Shown here piece after piece: positions 615 to 54,252 of a DNA stretch of 64,000 bases. The notes below the pieces were generated by a model. That model was not told the DNA's origin and did not search any database. It worked only from the letters and a program-made list of their open reading frames with translations. Every line of letters begins with the position of its first letter. Position 1 is the first letter of the stretch. The translations under genes were made by a program, and so were the position numbers. The DNA is taken from positions 105,774-169,773 of the forward strand of contig SVHM01000001.1 of the NCBI GenBank assembly GCA_015055815.1, read 5' to 3'. This DNA comes from Clostridiales bacterium. GTDB taxonomy: Bacteria > Bacillota > Clostridia > Christensenellales > UBA1242.

Positions 615-2333
615 TTAATTGTTTATAAATTTATTAAACAAATTACTCTTAAGCATTTCTTCATAATTTGAAATAAATTCTTCAGCAGGAACTTCAATTT
701 TCTCTAAAGTTGACCTTTTAATAACTTCAACAATACCATCTTTAGCACCCCTACCCACTATAATTATATAAGGAATACCTACAAGTTCAGCGTCATTTAA
801 TTTAACACCAATTGTTTCACTTCTATCATCTAGCAACACACTATCATTAATATTCAACTCTGAATATATTTTATCAGCAAGATTTCTTTGTGTTTCATCT
901 TTCATATTAGCAACAACAATTTCAATCTTATATGGAGCTACAACTTCAGGCCAAACCATTCCCTTTTCATCACAGTTTTGTTCAACCAATGCACTAAGAG
1001 TTCTTGAAATACCAATACCATAGCAACCCATGATCATATATTGCTCTTTACCTTGTTCATCCAAGAACTTACATTCAAGTGCTTTTGTATATCTTGTACC
1101 CAATTTAAAGATATGCCCAACTTCAATACCCCTAACAGTTCTAACAATACCACCACATCTTGGACACTTATCACCAGCAATTGCCCTTTTAATATCAGCA
1201 AAATAAGTAATTTTTAAATCTTCAATATTAGCATTGATATAATGACAATCTTCTTTATTACCACCAATTACAAAATTAGTCATATTTTGAATATCATTAT
1301 CTGCAACAACTATTACATCTTTAAGTTGTTTTGTAGCACCAACAAAACCAGCAACTGAACCGATCTCGGCAATATCTTCTTGTGTAGCCATTTCAAGATT
1401 TAGTACACCAAGATTATTTTTTAACTTTACTTCTTCAACTTCTCTAAGTCCATTAACCAAAGCTATAGCCAAACCCTTTTCAGTCTTATAAACAACCGCT
1501 TTTACAAGCCTATCCATACCAACCTGTAAGAAGTTAGCAACATCTTCAATAGTTTTAACATTTGGTGTGTTTACAAGTTCAATAGCACCCTTTTCAACTA
1601 CAGAAGTATCCATTTGCATATGTAAGCATTCTGCTTTTTCTGTATTAGCACCATATCCACAATCACAAACAATTAGCTCATCTTCGCCAATATCCGCCTT
1701 AACCATGAATTCAATTGAGTCAGAACCACCCATAACACCATTATCTGCTTCAACAGGAACAAAATCAAGACCAAGTCTAGAAAAAATGTTCATATAAGCA
1801 TTTTTTACTTTGTCAAAAGATTTATCTAAACCTTCAGTAGTAGTATCAAAAGAATATGCATCTTTCATTATAAATTCTTTTGCTCTTTGTAGACCAAACC
1901 TTGCCCTAATCTCATCTCTATATTTATTTTGAATTTGATATAGAGTAAGTGGCAATTGCTTATAACTTTTAATACTTTCTTTTACTAAATATGTAAAAGG
2001 CTCTTCATGAGTTGGACCCAAACAATAATCTTTACCTGTACTATCATTTAATTTGTACATTGTGTTTCCAAATGTATTAAGCCTATTAGCATATATTTCT
2101 TGTGGAAGAAGTATAGGCATCTGAAGTTCAATAGCACCCGCATTATTCATTTCTTCTCTAATAATAGACTTTATATTTTCCAAAACTTTAAGACCCATTG
2201 GAAGATAAGTAAAAATACCATTACCCATTTGTTTTATAAAGCCAGCTTTTAATAGATACTTATGACTATTTATTTCTGCATTTGCTGGATCTTCCCTAAA
2301 AGTCTTAAAAAACGAATTTGTTAATCTCATCAT
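615..2333 (-). CDS. proS: Prolyl-tRNA synthetase (bacterial type with INS domain)
   Basis: Class II motifs and ProRS N-terminus (MRLTNSFFKTFREDPANAEINSHKYLLKAGFIKQMGNGIFTYLPMG). Confidence 0.96.
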   Translation of the reverse strand: MMRLTNSFFKTFREDPANAEINSHKYLLKAGFIKQMGNGIFTYLPMGLKVLENIKSIIREEMNNAGAIELQMPILLPQEIYANRLNTFGNTMYKLNDSTGKDYCLGPTHEEPFTYLVKESIKSYKQLPLTLYQIQNKYRDEIRARFGLQRAKEFIMKDAYSFDTTTEGLDKSFDKVKNAYMNIFSRLGLDFVPVEADNGVMGGSDSIEFMVKADIGEDELIVCDCGYGANTEKAECLHMQMDTSVVEKGAIELVNTPNVKTIEDVANFLQVGMDRLVKAVVYKTEKGLAIALVNGLREVEEVKLKNNLGVLNLEMATQEDIAEIGSVAGFVGATKQLKDVIVVADNDIQNMTNFVIGGNKEDCHYINANIEDLKITYFADIKRAIAGDKCPRCGGIVRTVRGIEVGHIFKLGTRYTKALECKFLDEQGKEQYMIMGCYGIGISRTLSALVEQNCDEKGMVWPEVVAPYKIEIVVANMKDETQRNLADKIYSELNINDSVLLDDRSETIGVKLNDAELVGIPYIIIVGRGAKDGIVEVIKRSTLEKIEVPAEEFISNYEEMLKSNLFNKFINN

Positions 2334-2339
2334 CTTCTC

Positions 2340-2546
2340 CTATTCAAAACTTTCTTCTCTAAAAGTTTCTAAATCTTGTTTTATTATATTTATTTTACCT
2401 TTTATATCATTTAATTGCTTATAGCATTCTTTAGCAAGAAGAACACCTTCTTCATACAGTTTTACACCATCACTCATACTAAGATTAGGGTCTTCTAACC
2501 TATCTGATATATCTTGTAATTTTTTAATTTTCTCTTCAAAATCCAT
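2340..2546 (-). CDS. xseB: Exodeoxyribonuclease VII small subunit
   Basis: MDFEEKIKKLQDISDRLEDPNLSMSDGVKLYEEGVLLAKEC; adjacent to xseA. Confidence 0.92.
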   Translation of the reverse strand: MDFEEKIKKLQDISDRLEDPNLSMSDGVKLYEEGVLLAKECYKQLNDIKGKINIIKQDLETFREESFE

Positions 2547-2548
2547 AA

Positions 2549-3718
2549 CTACTCCACTATACAATTAACATCACCATCAATCATTGATAATATCAATTTG
2601 TCATCTTTTTTAATCTTCTTAGATAAAGACACAACCTTGCTATTCTTAATAACTTTTGAATATCCCATGCTTGATAAATTTTTAGGATTTAATCCAGAAA
2701 TTTTTATCTCATTTTTTTCAATTGTATTCAAAGCATTGTCAATTTTCTTATCAAAATTAAAAATCTTTGAAATTTTACCATCAATACTACGATAACATTC
2801 ATGAAGTTTATTTACAGATAAATTATCTATCTTTTGATAACAAAAGTCAATATCTTTAATCAATAATTTTAGTTTATTAGATATAATTTTCTCAAAATTA
2901 TAAACATAACCATTAATTCTACCTATCTCAAGGCTTTTATCCCAAGCAACAATTTCAGCAGCAGCTGACGGTGTCGGAGCACGCATATCAGCCACAAAAT
3001 CTATAATGGTAAAATCGGTTTCATGTCCAACTGCCGAAACTAAAGGTTTCTTACAATCATATACAGCATTAGCAACTATTTCACTATTGAATGGTTCCAA
3101 GTCTTCCATACTTCCACCACCCCTAGCAACAATAATCACATCAATATCTTCATAATCTGAAAAAAATCTAATCCCAGAAGAAATTTCATGTTCAGCCCCT
3201 ATACCCTGAACTTTTACTGGATACAAAACAATATCAATTGTATCATTTCTTCTTGTAGTAACATCAATAATATCACGTATAACTGCACCAGTAGAACTAG
3301 TTACAACACCAATTCTTCTTACCCTTTCGGGAAGTTTCTTCTTCCTACTTTCAGCGAAATATCCACGACTTTCCAAATCTTCTTTTAATTTTAAAAACTT
3401 TTCGTATAATTGCCCCCTTCCATAAGGTTCAATAGATATCGCATTAAAAGAAAGCTTGCCACCTTTAACATAATAATTCATTCCACCCTTTACAAGAACT
3501 AAATCTCCAATATTGGGCTTTTGAAAATTATTTGCCCCAAACAAAACACACTGAAGCATACCATTTTCATCTTTTAAATTAAAGTAAGCAATTCCATTAG
3601 AAATATTATAACTAGATATCTCCCCAAACACACAAATATTCTGAAGCAAAACTTCAGAATTAAAAATATCTCTAATATAATTATTAAGTTGTGATACAGA
3701 AATATAACTATCCAGCAT
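2549..3718 (-). CDS. xseA: Exodeoxyribonuclease VII large subunit
   Basis: OB-fold N-terminus; GVVTSSTGAVIRDI, ARGGGSMEDLEPFNSE and SAVGHETDFT motifs. Confidence 0.96.
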   Translation of the reverse strand: MLDSYISVSQLNNYIRDIFNSEVLLQNICVFGEISSYNISNGIAYFNLKDENGMLQCVLFGANNFQKPNIGDLVLVKGGMNYYVKGGKLSFNAISIEPYGRGQLYEKFLKLKEDLESRGYFAESRKKKLPERVRRIGVVTSSTGAVIRDIIDVTTRRNDTIDIVLYPVKVQGIGAEHEISSGIRFFSDYEDIDVIIVARGGGSMEDLEPFNSEIVANAVYDCKKPLVSAVGHETDFTIIDFVADMRAPTPSAAAEIVAWDKSLEIGRINGYVYNFEKIISNKLKLLIKDIDFCYQKIDNLSVNKLHECYRSIDGKISKIFNFDKKIDNALNTIEKNEIKISGLNPKNLSSMGYSKVIKNSKVVSLSKKIKKDDKLILSMIDGDVNCIVE

Positions 3719-3719
3719 T

Positions 3720-4106
3720 TTACTTAATTACTTTAGCAAGTACCCCATTAACAAAACTATAACTTTTATCAGTTGAATATTTTTTTGCAATTTCTACCGC
3801 TTCATTAATAACAACATTTGTTGGCGTGTCACTAATAAATTTCAATTCACAGACAGCAAGTACTAAAATTGCTAAATCCACCTTATAAATTCTATCCAAC
3901 TCATAACCAACGGTGTTATCCTTAATAATTTGCATAATTTCATCATAGTTGGTATTAATAGTTCCAATCAAGTGATTAACAAATTCCTTATCGCCATCAT
4001 CAATTGTCAAATCATCAAAATTAAACATAAATTCATCATCAGGCTCATGAAAAAACTTTTCAAAAACTAATCTAAACGCATATTCTCTACTTTTAACTCT
4101 ACTCAT
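3720..4106 (-). CDS. nusB: Transcription antitermination factor NusB
   Basis: MSRVKSREYAFRLVFEKFF...VVINEAVEIAKKYSTDKSYSFVNGVLAKV. Confidence 0.93.
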   Translation of the reverse strand: MSRVKSREYAFRLVFEKFFHEPDDEFMFNFDDLTIDDGDKEFVNHLIGTINTNYDEIMQIIKDNTVGYELDRIYKVDLAILVLAVCELKFISDTPTNVVINEAVEIAKKYSTDKSYSFVNGVLAKVIK

Positions 4107-4156
4107 AATAACACTCCAAATAAAAGAAATAAACCCTTGTTATTCAAGGGCTATTT

Positions 4157-4534
4157 TTATATTAATTCATCTTTAGGAAACTCAACTCCAAGAACATGAA
4201 TATTAATTCTATTGATTTTAATGTCTATCATACCAGACAAACTATTTTTAATATTTTCTTGAACCCTAAAAGCAACTTCAGTAACATTATAACCAAAACA
4301 AACATTAATATATACATCAATATTCATAGCATTTTTGCTATACGTAATCTTAACGCCTTCGTAGTAGTTATTACTAAACCATCTTTTCAAAACAGAACCA
4401 AATTTTGTAACAATACTACTAACTCCAGCAATTTCTTTAGTTGCAAGATTGATTACAGAAAGAACGATATTGCTACCATATGTAACATTACCTTTTGCTT
4501 GTTTTTTAATATTACTTTTGTTATCGTACATCAT
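4157..4534 (-). CDS. Asp23/Gls24 family envelope stress protein
   Basis: Asp23-type domain, between nusB and the spoIIIA operon. Confidence 0.8.
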   Translation of the reverse strand: MMYDNKSNIKKQAKGNVTYGSNIVLSVINLATKEIAGVSSIVTKFGSVLKRWFSNNYYEGVKITYSKNAMNIDVYINVCFGYNVTEVAFRVQENIKNSLSGMIDIKINRINIHVLGVEFPKDELI

Positions 4535-4644
4535 AATTAAATCCCCGAATATGTTTAAAATAAACTTTTACACATTAATAATATACCACAACAAATGAAA
4601 TTATGCAATTAGAAAAAATACAATAATTTATATATTTTTTAATT

Positions 4645-5160
4645 TTATACTTCAATTATTTTAATGTTATCAATAGAATAATTTGAATTATTCTTTACAA
4701 CATCTACAATTTGAGCAACTTCATTATTTGTAAGACCTGCAGTTTCAACAATAACACTGATATTACCAGAACTAGTAGAAACAACTACATCATCAAAACC
4801 TTTTGCCTTTATTAGATTTTCAATTGTCATTACCATATCCATTGAAGTTACCAAATTAAGCCTTTCTGCTTCTGCATTAGCCTTTGCTTCTGCACTTGTA
4901 GCTTCACTAGCAATAATTGCATCTAAATACAAAATTTCTTGATTTCTTGTATCAGTTCTGTCGTCTCTATAGTTACTAAAAAAGTTTGCTGAAGTTTGAA
5001 TAGTTGCATTTGCTTCAGTAGAAGCAACATTATTAAGATAAATATTTACTCCACCAGTAATCAAAAGCAATGCACAAAATGTACTTAAAATCAATACTTT
5101 CTTTGCCTTACTAGACATCTTTTTTCTGATTTTAACTTTCTTTTCTTTTTTTTCTTTCAT
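4645..5160 (-). CDS. spoIIIAH: Stage III sporulation protein AH
   Basis: N-terminal TM plus C-terminal YscJ-like domain; last gene of the spoIIIA operon. Confidence 0.85.
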   Translation of the reverse strand: MKEKKEKKVKIRKKMSSKAKKVLILSTFCALLLITGGVNIYLNNVASTEANATIQTSANFFSNYRDDRTDTRNQEILYLDAIIASEATSAEAKANAEAERLNLVTSMDMVMTIENLIKAKGFDDVVVSTSSGNISVIVETAGLTNNEVAQIVDVVKNNSNYSIDNIKIIEV

Positions 5161-5173
5161 AATATACTCTCCT

Positions 5174-5752
5174 TTAAATTCCTTTTAAAACATTAATTTT
5201 ATCAACAGAAATATCTAAAAGCGTAGAAACAGCATTTAGTATATCTAGCTTAATCTGAATATTATCCGCACCGCTAGAAACAACAATCACCCCCTTTACT
5301 TTAGGTAAATTTTCTTTTAAAAGTATAGCTTCAGAATTACCCTTACCATTAACCACAATTATATTTGAAGAAGTCGTAGTCGTAGTTCCACTTGCAGTTG
5401 AACTTGTCTTACTATCGCTATCTGTCGCATAAACCATTTCAGGACTTCCATCTAGTGATACCATTACATCCACATCCCCAGCACCATCAATTTTTCCAAG
5501 TATATTCTCAAGTTTATTTTCAATTTCTTCAGAATACTTAAGTGTAGATATGTAAGTACTAGAAACTTCGTCACTCTGAATATTTTTCTCACTACTCAAA
5601 TTTAAATATAAGACAAATGAAATTATAACTACAATTATAAGAACAGCAATTTTTATGTATTTAGGAGATAGTTTTGAAAGCCAATCAAATTTTGCTTTAT
5701 TTCTAGAATTTTTAGAAATATTATTTTCAATAATTTTATCCATAAACAACAA
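5174..5752 (-). CDS. spoIIIAG: Stage III sporulation protein AG
   Basis: KGVIVVSSGADNIQIKLDILNAVSTLLDISVDKINVLKG and operon position. Confidence 0.88.
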   Translation of the reverse strand: MLFMDKIIENNISKNSRNKAKFDWLSKLSPKYIKIAVLIIVVIISFVLYLNLSSEKNIQSDEVSSTYISTLKYSEEIENKLENILGKIDGAGDVDVMVSLDGSPEMVYATDSDSKTSSTASGTTTTTSSNIIVVNGKGNSEAILLKENLPKVKGVIVVSSGADNIQIKLDILNAVSTLLDISVDKINVLKGI

Positions 5753-6194
5753 CTTTCTCCCTATCTATATTTGCAATTCTTATTACTTCTTCTACTATAA
5801 CTTCATATTTATTTATATTCGTTACATTTTCTAATAGAACTATATTTGAAATATCTATAGAAATATTTTCAATTTCATACCCATTAATACCATAATTACT
5901 CGATAATTCGACAAAAGCACCTTGAATACCAAGTCCCAAAATCGCACCTTCAATTTGCTTAATTAATAGATTATCCCTACTTTCTTTTATTTCTTCGTAA
6001 GTTCCAACATCAATTGAATTTTCATTAAAATTTAAATCAAAATCAAAATTCATAATTGGAGCAATAATAACACATAAAACTATTAGCCCAAATACACTTT
6101 TACATAATTTATTTGTCTTACCATTAGGATAAATTAAATCAAATAATATCCCTAAGAAGACAACACCAACTATACTTATAATCCATTTATTCAT
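5736..6194 (-). CDS. spoIIIAF: Stage III sporulation protein AF
   Basis: Two N-terminal TM segments and operon position. Confidence 0.85.
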   Translation of the reverse strand: MNKWIISIVGVVFLGILFDLIYPNGKTNKLCKSVFGLIVLCVIIAPIMNFDFDLNFNENSIDVGTYEEIKESRDNLLIKQIEGAILGLGIQGAFVELSSNYGINGYEIENISIDISNIVLLENVTNINKYEVIVEEVIRIANIDREKVVVYG

Positions 6195-6203
6195 ATAACA
6201 CCA

Positions 6204-7406
6204 CTATATAATATTAGCTGTACACATAATTAAACAAATAGTAATTACATACATCAACGCAACACCCAAAATTAAAACTATAGGAAGCAAAAGCAATTTA
6301 CTACAACTTGATATAAAACTAGACATTCTATTATTACCTGCAAGTTCAATTACCCCCGATGAAAGTTGTAAACCTAATTTAAAAATAACAATTGTTATTA
6401 TTGGCGAAATAATTGAAATAAATAAAACAAAAACACCAATAAGACCAATTGAATTTTTAACAAGTATTGACCCTAGAACTATAAAATCCATCCCATCAGA
6501 AATATACGACCCAATTATCGGAATATAACTTTTTACTGCAAACTTTGTAGCCTTAATGCTTACACTATCAAACTTACCAGCAGATATCCCCTGAATAGAT
6601 AAAAAACCAATAAATAATGTAAAAACAATTCCAATTACCCACTTAAAAGTAGATGTAAAAAAAGAAATAAACTTATCAAGTTTTATATTATCTGTTAAAG
6701 AATTTAAAATAGTAAATAGTAGTATCACGATAAACATTGGAAATAGAAGTTTAGAGAAAATCAAATTAACGCCATTTGTTAGAATAGCAACAAGCGGATT
6801 ATAAATTGAAATGGCAGACATTGAGCCAATTGACGCAAGTAACGTTATTAAAATTGGAAAAACAATCCCCATTTGTGTATGTATAGAATTTAAAATAGTG
6901 CTAGTAGTTTCCAGTATGCCCTTAAATGCAACAATAACAATGGTAACCAATAAAGAGAAACATATAAAATATACAATATCAGATTTTTGGTTATCAGTTT
7001 GAAAATTTAATACCATTGAAGTAAGCATAGAAATTCCAATTATAGCAAAAATAAGTGGCAATATGTTACGAATATTCTTAAATAATATAGATAGTATCAC
7101 AGAAATAACATTTGAGTAATCTAGCTCAAAATCACCGCTTAAAAGTTTTTCAATTTTTTCTCTCACAGATAAATTTTCAAAAAGTTCATAATTATCAATA
7201 TCAGCAACCACTTCATCAAGTTCACTAAAATCTATAATATCAACTACATCAATAGCACCAGAATACAATTCATGCGTAAAATCATTTTCATTTGCACTCA
7301 CATAGCCACAATCAAAAGAAAATACTAGCGCAAACAAAAACAAAATCAAAACAATAATCATTTTGTATGAAAATTTTCTATTCTTTATTAAAAACTTCTT
7401 TTTCAT
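6204..7406 (-). CDS. spoIIIAE: Stage III sporulation protein AE
   Basis: Multi-TM protein with SpoIIIAE-type sequence and operon position. Confidence 0.88.
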   Translation of the reverse strand: MKKKFLIKNRKFSYKMIIVLILFLFALVFSFDCGYVSANENDFTHELYSGAIDVVDIIDFSELDEVVADIDNYELFENLSVREKIEKLLSGDFELDYSNVISVILSILFKNIRNILPLIFAIIGISMLTSMVLNFQTDNQKSDIVYFICFSLLVTIVIVAFKGILETTSTILNSIHTQMGIVFPILITLLASIGSMSAISIYNPLVAILTNGVNLIFSKLLFPMFIVILLFTILNSLTDNIKLDKFISFFTSTFKWVIGIVFTLFIGFLSIQGISAGKFDSVSIKATKFAVKSYIPIIGSYISDGMDFIVLGSILVKNSIGLIGVFVLFISIISPIITIVIFKLGLQLSSGVIELAGNNRMSSFISSCSKLLLLPIVLILGVALMYVITICLIMCTANII

Positions 7407-7792
7407 AACAATTCCAAAATTATATTAAATAAATTTGCAACTATCGGCATACTTACAATAAAAATGAGAATTTTGCCAGCTAATGCGACTTTATCACCAA
7501 TTGACGAATGTCCACTATCATTACAAATACCCACCGAAAATTCAACTAAATATCCTATGCCTATAATTTTTAATAATATTTTAAAAAGATTTCCATCAAT
7601 TCCAGTTTTATTTACAACTTCAGAAAAAAAACTAAAAATATTAGTGAAACTATTAATTATATAAACAAGTATAATAATACCACCAATAATTATTGCAAAA
7701 AGCGAATATTCGGGTTTTATTTGCTTAAGGATTACCGATACAACACTTACAACTATTCCAATAAAAACAACCTTTATTAGCTCCATAAACAC
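7403..7792 (-). CDS. spoIIIAD: Stage III sporulation protein AD
   Basis: SpoIIIAC/AD family; operon position. Confidence 0.88.
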   Translation of the reverse strand: MFMELIKVVFIGIVVSVVSVILKQIKPEYSLFAIIIGGIIILVYIINSFTNIFSFFSEVVNKTGIDGNLFKILLKIIGIGYLVEFSVGICNDSGHSSIGDKVALAGKILIFIVSMPIVANLFNIILELL

Positions 7793-7795
7793 TCG

Positions 7796-7990
7796 CTATA
7801 ACGCAAATAAAGTTTTTACAGTTGTAAACAATTCGCTAATCATATTGACAATTGAAAATAACACAACAATTATTCCTGCAAGCGTTACAAAAGTAGCAAC
7901 TTCATCTTTGCCAGAAAGCTTTAATATTTGATTAATAACTGCAGTTAATATACCTATTGCAGCAATCTTGAAAATAATATCAATATCCAT
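7796..7990 (-). CDS. spoIIIAC: Stage III sporulation protein AC
   Basis: 64-aa SpoIIIAC family; operon position. Confidence 0.88.
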   Translation of the reverse strand: MDIDIIFKIAAIGILTAVINQILKLSGKDEVATFVTLAGIIVVLFSIVNMISELFTTVKTLFAL

Positions 7991-7998
7991 ATCACCCT

Positions 7999-8448
7999 TT
8001 AAATCAACAATATAAAAAATACTAAACCTAAAATTATAATTAACTTCATATAAAGTAAGCCTTTATTTTTTAAATCAAATAATGCTTGCTCTTTTAAATT
8101 TTCAAAGTTGTTTTCATGATAAGTGATGTTATTAATTTCATAGTCAACATTACCCTTACCAAGACTTGAAAAAAACTTATCTATAATTTCCCTATCATCA
8201 TTTTTTAGAAAAATATTAGAACTATCTAAACTATTTAATATTTTTCTTGTTGTAAATTTTAAATTTATAATGTTAGAATTTAATATCTCTTTTATATTGT
8301 CTTTACTAAAAGAAATATTATTTTTTAAACTTTTACAAATATAAACCATATCAGCATAAAGACTATGCCTAACACTATAAAATTTATAAACACAAACACC
8401 TATTAAAATAAAAAACACAAGCATCAGCAGTAGTAAAAAAAGTTTCAT
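7999..8448 (-). CDS. spoIIIAB: Stage III sporulation protein AB
   Basis: N- and C-terminal TM segments, operon position. Confidence 0.8.
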   Translation of the reverse strand: MKLFLLLLMLVFFILIGVCVYKFYSVRHSLYADMVYICKSLKNNISFSKDNIKEILNSNIINLKFTTRKILNSLDSSNIFLKNDDREIIDKFFSSLGKGNVDYEINNITYHENNFENLKEQALFDLKNKGLLYMKLIIILGLVFFILLI

Positions 8449-9359
8449 TAAACACCTATAAATTTTAGATTTTCATTATAAATTCCATCAACAGTACCAA
8501 CACCATCACTGTTTGACAACACAACAAACCTATCAAACATCTTACTTTCAAGCACTCGTCTAAATAATGGTTTGTTTTTTAAGTCGTATATATTACTTGC
8601 ATGAATAGTAGAAATTACTTTAACTCCACTAGATAGAGCATTTTCTATGTCTTCAATATCTTTTGATAAATTAATTTCATCAGTAAATATCACGTCCGGT
8701 TTCATACTTCTAATACCATTATTAAATGCAAATTTTTTTGTACAATTAGAGTACACGTCAACTTGCGAAAGTTTAATATAATCATGACCATTATAAATAG
8801 AACATATTTCATTACGTTCATCAATTACTAATATATTAAGCAAATTTTCCCTTACTGACATTTGATATATCAAATCTCTTAAATATGTAGTTTTACCCGC
8901 ACCTGGCGGAGATATAATAAGAGTGTTTTTTATAACTCCATTATTTACTATATAAGGATAAATTGAAAGACTACAATTTTTAACAAAATGCGGAAATCTA
9001 AAATTAAGTGAAGATATATTTTTAATTGTTTTTACTTCGCCATTTACTACAACAACATCGCCACAAACACCCACCCTGATGCCCCCATCTATCGTTGCAT
9101 ATCCTTCAATTAATTGGTCGTTGATAGTATAAAGCGAATTATTACTAATTCTAGATAAAATACCTTGAATTTCAGCACGAGAAATTTTTATATTATCAAT
9201 TTTATTTTTAGAAAAACTATTATTATTAAGGTAAAAATTCTCACCTTGAATATTAATAATTGTATCTTCATCAACCCTTAATCGTAGTTCACAAATAGAA
9301 TTATATGGTATGCCATTTATACAATCAGATATCCTTTGCGGAAGAATATTCTCTAACAT
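8448..9359 (-). CDS. spoIIIAA: Stage III sporulation protein AA (secretion-type ATPase)
   Basis: Walker A SPPGAGKTTYLRD; DERNEI motif. Confidence 0.93.
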   Translation of the reverse strand: MLENILPQRISDCINGIPYNSICELRLRVDEDTIINIQGENFYLNNNSFSKNKIDNIKISRAEIQGILSRISNNSLYTINDQLIEGYATIDGGIRVGVCGDVVVVNGEVKTIKNISSLNFRFPHFVKNCSLSIYPYIVNNGVIKNTLIISPPGAGKTTYLRDLIYQMSVRENLLNILVIDERNEICSIYNGHDYIKLSQVDVYSNCTKKFAFNNGIRSMKPDVIFTDEINLSKDIEDIENALSSGVKVISTIHASNIYDLKNKPLFRRVLESKMFDRFVVLSNSDGVGTVDGIYNENLKFIGV

Positions 9360-41558: not shown

Positions 41559-42464
41559 TCAATCTTCTATTGTAAATGCCTTTAAAAAAACCATTCTATC
41601 ATGAAAATTCTTTTTAAAACTTTCGAAGTCAACATCATCAAAAATCGATTCAAATATTTCTAGATTTTGTTTAGCAACATCATAATTAGCTTCATTCTTT
41701 GCATGAGTAAAACTATTATGTATGAAATTAAATCCTAAATTGTCTGAATTGTAAAAAACATTCACAATATCTTGCATATGTCCATTAAAAATACTATAAA
41801 TATCTCTAAATGTCAATACCTGTTTTCTACTAAGTGGCAAAAATTTATCATTTTCAAAGACTTTAAATTTATCACTAAATCTTTTATAAATATGAAATGA
41901 ACTTAGCGCAAAGTCTTTTTTATTGTAATGAGAATTAAATACTCTTAGGGCACCAGACAAATCTACTCCCATTGCAAGTAGATAATTAACCATATAATCA
42001 TGTTCATATAATGCTAGATAAAAATCGCCATTTTTATCAATTAAACCATCAGCTCCTTTTATCTTACATTTTGATACACGAGTTATAAATTCTGTCTTTG
42101 CACTTGTATCTTGCTTTAAATCTTGTGTAACAATAACACCATCTTTGACATCTAGATACCCACTATCATGAAAATTAATCATTTTACAAAGTGTATCATG
42201 AATTTGAAATCTGACATCATCATCTAACTTTCTTACTACTTCACTGTCTGAATCTAATTCAAATATATTCCACAAAGAACATAGATTTTTATACAAATCT
42301 TTTTCAGTTGACTGTTCATTTAATGTGCTATTTAAAATATCTAGAAGTTCTTGAAATATAGACGAGTTATTCTCGCCTATATCATAAAAAATATCATTAA
42401 GTTTTTGACCTTTTTTATTAAGTTTTTTTGTTAATTTAATTAACTTTAATGTTGTTAAATACAC
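41559..42464 (-). CDS. Uncharacterised protein, paralogue of the neighbouring ORF
   Basis: See the adjacent paralogue; stop codon abuts thrS end. Confidence 0.75.
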   Translation of the reverse strand: MYLTTLKLIKLTKKLNKKGQKLNDIFYDIGENNSSIFQELLDILNSTLNEQSTEKDLYKNLCSLWNIFELDSDSEVVRKLDDDVRFQIHDTLCKMINFHDSGYLDVKDGVIVTQDLKQDTSAKTEFITRVSKCKIKGADGLIDKNGDFYLALYEHDYMVNYLLAMGVDLSGALRVFNSHYNKKDFALSSFHIYKRFSDKFKVFENDKFLPLSRKQVLTFRDIYSIFNGHMQDIVNVFYNSDNLGFNFIHNSFTHAKNEANYDVAKQNLEIFESIFDDVDFESFKKNFHDRMVFLKAFTIED

Positions 42465-44233
42465 TATCCAATTCTCTTTTCGTTAATTTCTACTAAAATA
42501 TCTTTTATAAATTCATCAACTGGTTTTACACCAATATCCCCAACACTTCTCTTTCTTACAGAAACAGAATTACTTGACATTTCGTTATCTCCAATAATTA
42601 ATGAATAAGGAATTTTATCAAGTTGAGCATCTCTAATTTTCTTACCAATTTTTTCATTCCTATCATCAAGTTCAACTCTAATACCCATTTGACATAGTTT
42701 ATCCTTGACTTCTCTAGCATAGTCAAGATGAACATCTGCAATATTAAGAATTTTAACTTGAGTAGGAGAAAGCCATGTTGGGAATGCACCAGCATATTTT
42801 TCAATTAAGTATGCAAGAGTTCTCTCATAACAGCCAATACTTGTTCTATGGATAATATATGGATTTTTCTTTTGACCATCTTTATCAACATATTCCATAC
42901 CAAATTTTTCAGCAAGTAATTGGTCAATTTGTATAGTAATAAGAGTATCTTCTTTTCCCCAAACATTTTTAATTTGAATATCTAGTTTGGGTCCATAGAA
43001 TGCAGCTTCGCCAATTCCGATTTCATAAGGAATTTCAAGATTATCTAAAATCTTACCCATAATGCTTTGAGCTTCAGCCCATTGTTCATCAGTACCAATA
43101 TATTTTTCTCTATTATTTGGATCCCATTGAGAAAATCTATATGAAGCATCTTCATATAAACCTAATGTTTTAAGCATATAAATAGCAAGCTCCAAACAAC
43201 TTTTAAATTCATCTTCAAGTTGTTCTGGAGTGCACATTAAGTGTCCTTCAGAAATTGTGAATTGTCTAACTCTTATAAGTCCATGCATTTCACCACTTGC
43301 TTCATTTCTAAATAATGTTGATGTCTCATTATATCTAAGTGGCAAGTCTTTATAAGATCTACCTTCATTTAAATATGCTTGATATTGGAATGGACAAGTC
43401 ATAGGACGAAGTGCAAATACTTCTTTGTCTTTCTCTTCATCACCAAGAACAAACATACCATCTTTATAATGGTCCCAGTGTCCAGATATTTTATAAAGGT
43501 CAGACTTTGCCATAAATGGAGTTTTTGTAAGCAACCAACCCCTTTTTTCTTCTTCATCTTCTACAAATCTTTGAAGAAGTTGAACAATTCTAGCGCCCTT
43601 TGGAAGAAGAATTGGAAGTCCTTGACCAATATAGTCAACAGTTGTAAAAATACCTAATTCTCTACCTAATTTATTGTGATCTCTCTTAATTGCTTCTTCA
43701 ATCATGTTTACATAGTCTTTAAGTTGCTTTTTATCAAGGAACCCATAGAAATATACTCTTTGAAGCATTTTATTTTTCTCTGAGCCTTTCCAATAAGCAC
43801 CACTTACTCTATTAATTTTATAAGCAAAGCCCCTTAAAAATTTAGTATTTTCAACGTGTGGTCCCCTACATAAATCAACAAAGTCATCACCTAAATAATA
43901 TACAGAAATAGTCTCATTCTCTGGAAGTTCATTTATAAGTTCGCATTTATAAGGCTCACTTGCAAACATTTTCAATGCTTGTTCTTTTGAAACTTCTTCT
44001 CTTTTGAAATCTTCATTTCTTTCAATAATTTCTTTCATTTTGCTTTCAATATTTGCAAAGTCATCATTAGATATAGACTTATTGATATCAAAATCATAAT
44101 AAAAACCATTGTCAATTGCTGGTCCAATTGCAAGTTTTACATTGTCACTACCAAATAGTTCTTTAATTGCCTTTGCTAGAACATGGCTCATACTGTGACG
44201 ATACATCATTTCTTTTTCATTAATTTCACTCAT
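42464..44233 (-). CDS. thrS: Threonyl-tRNA synthetase
   Basis: MYRHSMSHVLAKAIKELFG ... RPMTCPFQYQAY ... FTISEGHLMCTPEQ. Confidence 0.97.
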   Translation of the reverse strand: MSEINEKEMMYRHSMSHVLAKAIKELFGSDNVKLAIGPAIDNGFYYDFDINKSISNDDFANIESKMKEIIERNEDFKREEVSKEQALKMFASEPYKCELINELPENETISVYYLGDDFVDLCRGPHVENTKFLRGFAYKINRVSGAYWKGSEKNKMLQRVYFYGFLDKKQLKDYVNMIEEAIKRDHNKLGRELGIFTTVDYIGQGLPILLPKGARIVQLLQRFVEDEEEKRGWLLTKTPFMAKSDLYKISGHWDHYKDGMFVLGDEEKDKEVFALRPMTCPFQYQAYLNEGRSYKDLPLRYNETSTLFRNEASGEMHGLIRVRQFTISEGHLMCTPEQLEDEFKSCLELAIYMLKTLGLYEDASYRFSQWDPNNREKYIGTDEQWAEAQSIMGKILDNLEIPYEIGIGEAAFYGPKLDIQIKNVWGKEDTLITIQIDQLLAEKFGMEYVDKDGQKKNPYIIHRTSIGCYERTLAYLIEKYAGAFPTWLSPTQVKILNIADVHLDYAREVKDKLCQMGIRVELDDRNEKIGKKIRDAQLDKIPYSLIIGDNEMSSNSVSVRKRSVGDIGVKPVDEFIKDILVEINEKRIG

Positions 44234-44249: not shown

Positions 44250-44465
44250 AAACAAAAAAATCCTTATGATAACATAAGGACGAGATTAACCCGCGGTTCC
44301 ACCTTATTTGGTTTTTATAAAAAAACCCACTTTAAATTATCTATTACGCATAGATAAAGCGATACTCCAAAAGTGGTTTCAATAAATATTATAATGCAAG
44401 GCTCTCAGCCACCCCCGCTCTCTGTAAAAATTGAATATTTATCTACTTGTCTTTTATCTTCGTAT
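44250..44465 (-). promoter_or_regulatory. T-box leader of thrS (Thr, ACC specifier)
   Basis: Minus strand contains AGAGAGCGGGGGTGGCTGAGAGCC (stem I), TGAAACCACTTTTGGAGTATCGC, canonical AAGGTGGAACCGCG, then terminator TCCTTATGTTATCATAAGGATTTTTTT. Confidence 0.92.
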
Positions 44466-44511
44466 TACATAATTAATTTACTATATTTATAACCATTTGT
44501 CAAGTGGTATA

Positions 44512-52978: not shown

Positions 52979-53163
52979 ACCACAAGTATAACACACTATT
53001 ATTAAAAGTGGTATAGTTTTAACAAAAAAAAGAGAAAATTTTAGATTTCTTCTCTCTTGTGTTTAGTTGTTGCTTGTGTCTTTGTTTTTAGTGTTTAGTA
53101 AAGCGTCAACACTTTTGGCTAATAAAAAACAACCCAAACACTCTGGTTTGGAATAGTTTTCTA

Positions 53164-53336
53164 TGGTGCTGGTGCCCAGACGTGGTGCAGACAATGTAAT
53201 TGTCAAATTAGCGAAGAGCATAGCTCGAGCGTCACAGGTACGATAAGTACCAGTTGATGTATGAAATACATCGTGAACGATAGTTCACTTCAAGTCTGGT
53301 ATTAAGCAAAACAAAAAGACCCTTGCGGGTCTTATT
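53164..53336. repeat. tRNA-Leu-associated hairpin module L1 (173 bp)
   Basis: Starts with a tRNA-Leu 3'-end copy TGGTGCTGGTG; core GGTGCAG-hp-CAAATTAGCGA-hp-GAGCGTCAC; ends just before the genuine tRNA-Leu 3' end at 53337. Confidence 0.88.
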
Positions 53337-53342
53337 TGGTGC
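53283..53342. repeat. Direct repeat copy 2 (partner of 52261-52319)
   Basis: GTTCACTTCAAGTCTGGTATTAAGCAAAACAAAAAGACCCTTGCGGGTCTTATTTGGTGC. Confidence 0.95.
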
Positions 53343-53423
53343 TGGTGACCAGACTTGAACTGGTACGGTTGTTACACCGCAGGATTTTAAGTCCTGTGCG
53401 TCTGCCGATTCCGCCACACCAGC
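53337..53423 (-). tRNA. tRNA-Leu (UAA)
   Basis: GCTGGTGTGGCGGAATCGGCAGACGCACAGGACTTAAAATCCTGCGGTGTAACAACCGTACCAGTTCAAGTCTGGTCACCAGCACCA; encoded CCA, long variable arm. Confidence 0.97.
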
Positions 53424-53426
53424 AAA

Positions 53427-53501
53427 TGGAGGCACCTCTCAGATTCGAACTGAGGCATGAGGGTTTTGCAGACCCGGGCCTTACCACTTGGCTAAGGTGC
53501 C
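53427..53501 (-). tRNA. tRNA-Cys (GCA)
   Basis: GGCACCTTAGCCAAGTGGTAAGGCCCGGGTCTGCAAAACCCTCATGCCTCAGTTCGAATCTGAGAGGTGCCTCCA. Confidence 0.97.
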
Positions 53502-53627
53502 ATGATTTGAACAAAGTAATTATAACACATTAAATTTCTTATGTAAAGTATTTAAATTAAAATTTATCAATATTTTATTTATAATATGAAATAATAAAAA
53601 CAAAGGTTACAAATAAAAATGTTAAAA

Positions 53628-53681
53628 AAATCTAAATCACGTCAATAAGCGAAAAAAAGAAACCCATTAGGTTTCTATTTA
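53628..53681. repeat. Truncated tRNA-Gly module remnant (tail plus terminator)
   Basis: TCACGTCAATAAGCGAAAAAAAGAAACCCATTAGGTTTCTATTTA matches the module tail (..TCTCGTCAATAAGCGAAAAAAAGAAACCCGTTAGGTTTCTATTTA). Confidence 0.8.
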
Positions 53682-53862
53682 TGGAGCGGAAGATCGAGTT
53701 CGGTGCAGTCACGCTAGTGACAAATTAGCGATAGACTAAAGTCTGAGCGTCACTAAGCGACATTCGGAGCGAGTTCCTTTGCGTGTAAGCAAAGCATGTT
53801 CGCTAGAACATGTGAATCTCGTCTATAAGCGAAAAAAAAGAAACCCGTTAGGTTTCTATTTA
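53682..53862. repeat. tRNA-Gly-associated hairpin module G1 (181 bp)
   Basis: Starts TGGAGCGGAAG (tRNA-Gly 3' end copy); core at 53702-53753; T-arm halves GCGAGTTC and GAATCTCGTC separated by hairpins. Confidence 0.92.
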
Positions 53863-54044
53863 TGGAGCGGAAGATCGAGTTCGGTGCAGTCACGTTAGTG
53901 ACAAATTAGCGATAGACTATATAGTCTGAGCGTCACTAAGCGACATTCGGAGCGAGTTCCTTTGCGTGTAAGCAAAGCATGTTCGCTAGAACATGTGAAT
54001 CTCGTCAATAAGCGAAAAAAAGAAACCCGTTAGGTTTCTATTTA
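53863..54044. repeat. tRNA-Gly-associated hairpin module G2 (182 bp), tandem copy of G1
   Basis: Near-identical to G1; hairpin 2 is AGACTATATAGTCT instead of AGACTAAAGTCT. Confidence 0.93.
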
Positions 54045-54119
54045 TGGAGCGGAAGACGAGATTCGAACTCGCGACATTCGCCTTGGCAAGGCGACGCTCT
54101 ACCACTGAGCCACTCCCGC
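54045..54119 (-). tRNA. tRNA-Gly (GCC)
   Basis: GCGGGAGTGGCTCAGTGGTAGAGCGTCGCCTTGCCAAGGCGAATGTCGCGAGTTCGAATCTCGTCTTCCGCTCCA. Confidence 0.97.
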
Positions 54120-54120
54120 A

Positions 54121-54252
54121 TATTTAATTATTTGCGTTCGCCTTGGCAAGTCTCGCTCAACCACGCTTACTGCCGCCACTCCCGCATATTTAATTATTTG
54201 CGTTCGCCTTGGCAAGTCTCGCTCAACCACGCTTACTGCCGCCACTCCCGCA
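54121..54252 (-). repeat. Two 66-bp tandem degenerate copies of the tRNA-Gly 5' half
   Basis: Minus strand unit GGGAGTGGCGGCAGTAAGCGTGGTTGAGCGAGACTTGCCAAGGCGAACGCAAATAATTAAATATGC; CCCGCA starts at 54115, 54181 and 54247 (period 66). Confidence 0.9.

Follow-up and report, generated by a model that had tools for sequence, protein, structure and literature searches.

Mobile DNA of bacteria docks mainly at tRNA genes. Islands and prophages that a tyrosine integrase places at T-loop or T/acceptor-junction subsites of tRNA or tmRNA genes leave an intact tRNA at one end and a displaced 3' fragment in the same orientation at the other; the element restores the 3' part of the tDNA, the original flank is displaced, and tandem arrays occur. 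The T-loop is one of three known crossover subsites of tRNA-integrating islands (PMC4383910). Island searches discard small or integrase-less elements, so a family of very small units could be overlooked; Islander rejects candidates under 2 kb or without an integrase (PMC4383910), and units of the kind described here would therefore be missed. Integron cassettes form arrays at one fixed junction, and in their attC sites the stem sequence varies while the fold and the junction bases persist. MITEs and other non-autonomous repeats are short, gene-free, and bear inverted repeats at their ends. Filamentous phages integrate via a folded single-stranded attP with the help of host Xer recombinases.

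The units presented in this study are gene-free DNA segments of about 110-190 bp that follow the tmRNA gene and many of the tRNA genes in a poorly known group of Clostridia, and they form a real family of folded mini-insertions. The family is apparently undescribed, as literature searches outside the subscription journals found no published description of such units. With tRNA and tmRNA islands and prophages they share the intact tRNA at one end, the displaced fragment at the other, the tandem arrays, and the use of tmRNA. On the other hand, they are shorter than 200 bp, have no integrase and in most cases no ORF, whereas an island has an integrase and at least about 2 kb; they also have a conserved multi-hairpin fold, contain an antisense T-arm, and show one fold at more than 20 tRNA kinds. 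Arrays at a fixed junction, variable stems with persistent fold and junction bases, and a folded strand that could rebuild the recombination site are reminiscent of integron cassettes and attC, but the units are without attI and mostly without an ORF, no integrase at the level of IntI was found, and their junction is T55|C56 of the tRNA instead of G|TT of the attC R box. Like MITEs they are short and gene-free, have an inverted repeat (the helix P1) at the ends, and are probably moved in trans, although they appear to lack a short target duplication, are site-specific, and have ends that take the sequence of the target tRNA; no parent transposon was found, and the duplication is the 21-nt tRNA end, with the terminator at some loci. 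The single-stranded folded site and tyrosine recombinase of filamentous phages would fit the anatomy of the units, but these have no phage genes, and the sole inovirus-like prophage that we saw is a separate insertion. The signature of integration into tRNA genes is present, but the units fall outside the tested definitions of islands, integron cassettes, and Rfam families.

The window, i.e., the whole stretch of 64,000 nucleotides that was analyzed, belongs to the genome G000. The original prediction described three hairpin modules in it, L1 (53164-53336) at tRNA-Leu and G1 (53682-53862) and G2 (53863-54044) at tRNA-Gly, and all three were recovered at these positions with every hairpin quoted for them. 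To that description we add that the modules immediately follow the tRNAs on their downstream side and are oriented in tRNA sense (the minus strand of the window; unit orientation is given on the tRNA-sense strand throughout), that the non-core hairpins are embedded in an antisense copy of the T-arm of the same tRNA, and that each module ends with a sense copy of the 3' end of its tRNA plus CCA. The main clue, which is absent from the original prediction, is that a unit is partly spelled in the sequence of its own tRNA and is joined to it exactly at T55|C56. The order of a unit is a terminator, A1 (antisense of the 3' side of the T-arm), hairpins a and b, A2 (antisense of the 5' side of the T-arm), the core (P2, linker, P3, linker), the sense copy from T-loop to CCA, and the next terminator. 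The tRNA 3'-end copy from C56 to A76 (21 nt) is designated T3.

The host gene of L1, tRNA-Leu(UAA), occupies 53337-53423 on the minus strand, which also carries tRNA-Gly and all the unit parts given below, and its own C56-A76 (T3) lies at 53337-53357. The unit starts directly after the gene with a terminator-like hairpin and T-run (53312-53333). A1 of L1, ACCAGACTTGAA (53289-53300), is the exact antisense of the T-loop and the 3' side of the T-stem of tRNA-Leu, and A2, AACTGGTAC (53247-53255), is that of the 5' side of the T-stem; the antisense T-arm is interrupted by hairpins a (53273-53288) and b (53256-53272), which together span 53256-53288, and the end of A2 forms the hairpin Pc (53237-53251). 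The core, GTGACGCTC-H2-TCGCTAATTTG-H1-CTGCACC (53184-53235), is followed by the displaced sense copy of the tRNA-Leu 3' end with CCA (53164-53183) and then by a different terminator (53124-53151). The Gly array is hosted by tRNA-Gly(GCC) at 54045-54119. Unit G2 consists of a terminator (54015-54040), A1 (GACGAGATTC, 53997-54006; the exact antisense of the 3' side of the tRNA-Gly T-arm), hairpins a (53978-53995) and b (53960-53977), spanning 53960-53995, A2 (GAACTCGC, 53952-53959; antisense of the 5' side), and the core (53883-53936). A sense copy of the tRNA-Gly 3' end with CCA (53863-53882) stands between G2 and G1. The latter has its terminator at 53833-53858, A1 (53814-53823), hairpins a and b (53777-53812), and A2 (53769-53776) within 53769-53823, its core at 53702-53753, and another sense copy with CCA at 53682-53701; the terminator and the start of A1 of a third, truncated unit are located at 53634-53677. 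Upstream of tRNA-Gly, at 54109-54250, there is a 66-bp tandem repeat (two copies and one partial) of degenerate tRNA-Gly 5' halves, a mirror image of the 3'-end copies downstream.

A shared core with differing hairpins had been proposed for the three modules, and the pattern GGTGCAG-N-CAAATTAGCGA-N-GAGCGTCAC occurs three times in the window and in none of 100 dinucleotide shuffles. For covariation, seven core copies were aligned: the three of the window, one elsewhere in G000 (C1:89.5k) that adjoins a tRNA-Ser 3'-end remnant, and three in a second species, G009 (MAG BRZ_AM__bin13, an uncultured Clostridia bacterium), which has copies behind tRNA-Leu(UAA) and tRNA-Gln(CUG). The compensatory changes described earlier are borne out; in both core stems 100% of the cells are paired, eight of nine pairs vary on both sides, and the covariation score is reached by 0 of 500 shuffles. 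In a second core lineage, 10 of 13 pairs vary on both sides (12 sequences), with 0/500 shuffles reaching the score. Covariation is strong in these two independent core lineages. Rfam gave no family at or near the gathering threshold over the modules, while tRNA and tmRNA reach the threshold at the host genes. This null, the covariation in both lineages, and the further copies uphold the earlier view of a structured family, possibly mobile, of no known class. Around the fourth copy (G000:C1, about 84-92 kb; L222, L001), a long partial copy of tRNA-Ser comes after tRNA-Ser(UGA), and the module, with no more than a 3' remnant of tRNA-Ser, lies about 0.9 kb further along.

By minimum-energy folding, a unit takes the shape of a five-hairpin star, in which A1 pairs with the displaced T-stem to form P1, which closes hairpins a, b, Pc, P2, and P3. 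Both P1 and Pc are spelled by the T-arm of the tRNA, and modules of different tRNAs consequently have a common core and different arms. The evidence on which strand folds is mixed. Raw folding energy makes the antisense strand the more stable one in 31 of 37 units, a preference that z-scores against shuffles do not bear out, and folding energy was therefore abandoned as a means of choosing the strand. The counts of G-U versus A-C pairs (5 versus 10) are not decisive. GNA/GNNA loops are in excess on the antisense strand (GNA in 18/54 triloops versus 20/193), which is only suggestive, and a conserved A-C pair that is G-U on the other strand is a weak or confounded indication for antisense.

The main rival to an insertion cassette is a structured noncoding RNA, in either sense relative to the tRNA, that would pair with the cognate T-arm or 3' end and control the processing, level, or quality of the tRNA. 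The strong covariation, the antisense T-arm that exactly matches the unit's own tRNA, and the terminators that flank the unit are all consistent with an RNA of this kind. The complementarity between A1 and T3, however, follows anyway from helix P1, and no promoter was seen by eye between terminator and unit.

A search for further copies near tRNA genes had also been proposed, and units were found at more than 20 tRNA kinds and at tmRNA. The same anatomy with different cores occurs downstream of tRNA-Leu or tRNA-Gly in many of the 13 genomes of the genus. A split antisense T-arm or a 3'-end copy was present in 37 of 192 tRNA contexts of the genus; as controls for the antisense match, tails swapped between tRNAs gave 0.8% and upstream regions 0/192. 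By our reading, where tRNA genes form a group, the units come after its last member. Units also occur in other genera of the family (G015, G056, G047, G032, and G013) and in at least one other family of the order, where there is one at Thr of G144 and probably one at Ala of G130. The covariance model of the second core lineage gave 76 matches, which are spread over 19 of the 249 genomes of the family; G000 accounts for 11 of these matches. Most of the matches that were fetched lie on the same strand behind a tRNA, or in three genomes behind tmRNA, and most of the remainder are at contig ends or retain a tRNA 3' end. Core-model matches were found behind Ser, Leu, Arg, Glu, Asn, Ile, Gln, and Met tRNAs and tmRNA. 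A scan for the exact core across 85,488 species returned one MAG, that of the G009 organism. The presence of units is patchy at orthologous tRNAs, which is not what a resident RNA that controls its tRNA would lead one to expect; on the other hand, the Lys and Ile units persist across species and are old and vertically inherited, which would suit a resident functional RNA.

The junction of the units is fixed. Among units found via the tRNA, exact 3'-end copies of 21 nt, starting from C56, were observed in 15 units behind many tRNA kinds. In the core-model matches, the 21 nt from C56 are 89% identical to the upstream tRNA or tmRNA (21/21 in 22 of 38), a figure of which the remaining 14 nt form the independent part, since the last 7 columns of the model overlap T3. 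The 10 nt before C56 have 21% identity, i.e., chance. The change at T55|C56 is sharp across many tRNA kinds; the junction retains C56 onward and not T54-T55. T-stem changes occur in many T3 copies and count against a cassette. Read on the opposite strand, a unit starts with TGG followed by as many as 18 nt that could pair with the tRNA 3' end, an arrangement that resembles the primer-binding site of a tRNA-primed retroelement. No RVT_1 reverse transcriptase was present in five unit-bearing genomes (G004, G005, G007, G009, and G012; G007 is only 80% complete), and with most carriers devoid of the enzyme this reading is largely refuted and, in our judgment, extremely improbable.

Comparison of orthologous loci reveals both empty and occupied sites. 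In G012, tRNA-Glu is directly followed by (A)TTTTAATCTCTATC..., which represents the empty site. In G007 and G004, the G012-type flank appears after the distal T3, while tRNA-Glu itself is followed by a different terminator and a unit, and in G004 also by a prophage; this displacement indicates that both the terminator and the 3' end now present in the tRNA came with the unit. As in islands, the 3' part of the tDNA is restored and the original flank displaced. At the Ile loci of G005 and G004, similar terminators stand on either side of the unit and agree with the empty locus of G006, which is what a closely related donor would be expected to leave. The Gly-Cys-Leu cluster, which is contiguous in relatives, is split by the Gly array in G000. 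Arrays are found at many tRNAs: besides the two Gly units of the window, the initiator tRNA-Met of G000 has an array of at least four near-identical modules (L377 1828-2700), and an A-B-A' array stands behind tRNA-Thr in G007. One cassette occurs in two tRNA kinds, i.e., Thr-GGU of G000 and Thr-CGU of G012 (87% over 122 nt). In the latter, T3 is a hybrid of donor-type CAAGTCCC and the acceptor end of the local tRNA, the footprint that would be expected of strand exchange within the T-arm. The arrays, the A-B-A' array, and the hybrid 3' end point to repeated site-specific insertion. Insertion with replacement of the tRNA 3' end is thus shown, as is one transfer between tRNA kinds.

These observations bear on two alternatives. 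A noncoding RNA tied to its tRNA would account poorly for arrays with truncated or mixed units, for a fixed T55|C56 junction with the original flank displaced, and for one cassette in a second tRNA kind, and we consider it unlikely. The other alternative is replication slippage that locally folds back and tandemly duplicates tRNA ends, with products that are retained or drift and no machinery devoted to them. Such an origin would be in line with the partial tRNA duplications that are common, including the 5' halves upstream of tRNA-Gly, and with the core-less repeats at Thr of G012. It is very unlikely in our estimation, as it leaves unexplained the common two-hairpin core at different tRNAs and its covariation, together with the constant T55|C56 junction and the A-B-A' array.

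The units look like very small insertion cassettes from which the tRNA receives a new 3' end. We give a probability of roughly 0.58 to the reading that they are mini-cassettes, non-autonomous and inserted site-specifically, for which the T-loop of tRNA and tmRNA genes serves as the attachment site. A unit composed of terminator, A1-a-b-A2, two-hairpin core, and one C56-A76 copy would join its target between T55 and C56; the incoming copy, with its new terminator, would take over as the functional end of the tRNA and push the original 3' end and its flank downstream, and repeated events would build arrays. One strand of the unit would fold into the star closed by P1. Because crossover in the T-loop by tyrosine recombinases is established (PMC4383910), we infer that exchange is carried out in trans by an enzyme of that family, either a XerS-like protein of the host or that of a T-loop phage. 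The star may, speculatively, be the single-stranded form that the recombinase recognizes, by analogy with integron integrase and folded attC. Besides one other integrase, the recombinases of G000 comprise a XerS-like protein that is located at G000:C8:62.5k and has LexA as its neighbor; only two PF00589 proteins were found in that genome, both far below the integrase_gron cut-off for an integron integrase. The XerS-like protein is also present in relatives with few units, which counts against the cassette reading. No integrase lies inside the units, and no R1 or R2 core adjoins the integrase genes examined.

It is also conceivable, but doubtful, that the units represent a categorically new recombination system specified by base pairing, in which a folded single strand with an antisense T-arm would rebuild a double-stranded T-loop site, so that the arms would address the core machinery to any tRNA or tmRNA gene and could be re-addressed by arm exchange. 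If insertion as mini-cassettes is correct, few site-specific insertion cassettes described so far would be as small as these units, practically all tRNAs and tmRNA would be targets, and the 3' end and terminator of essential genes would be altered; they would also permit a direct test of whether recombination guided by structure exists beyond integrons and filamentous phages. Annotation should make room for the units, which can be mistaken for tRNA pseudogenes and repeats.

An origin from ordinary phages or islands that integrate at tRNAs, of which the units would be attachment-site scars or shrunken remnants, would agree with the intact tRNA and displaced 3' fragment, with the T-loop as a known crossover subsite (PMC4383910), and with the inovirus-like prophage, equipped with a tyrosine integrase, at the T-loop of tRNA-Glu in G004. 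This prophage of about 6.3 kb (L415, G004:C3, about 2120-8460) was located via a core match without a nearby tRNA. It encodes an HUH Rep-like protein (weak Pfam match PF23343), an HTH regulator, the tyrosine integrase, and, by inspection, Zot-like and coat-like proteins. The module had at first the appearance of an inovirus end, but the sequence is that of an independent phage insertion upstream of a complete module. Because the prophage sits between tRNA-Glu and an older, complete module with its own T3, which it displaced, it is a neighbor and not a parent. Scars would also hardly display one fold at more than 20 tRNA kinds. When viral contigs were scanned for the exact core, no convincing match emerged, and among the matches listed for phage and plasmid records nothing extended beyond the tRNA itself, the best ones falling on the tRNA gene part of the query. 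We regard scars or remnants as quite unlikely.

A few neighboring features were observed. At L388 1900-3380 and L385 1960-3240, ORFs that by inspection encode GNAT-like acetyltransferases lie between two module copies and recall gene cassettes; at L388 the tRNA-Arg beside the modules differs from their 3'-end copies. At L181 (G010), a relative without modules behind its tRNA-Gly, an IS200-like transposase gene follows shortly after the tRNA-Gly terminator. Elsewhere in the window, a T-box leader (44273-44469, minus strand) precedes the threonyl-tRNA synthetase gene (42464-44233).
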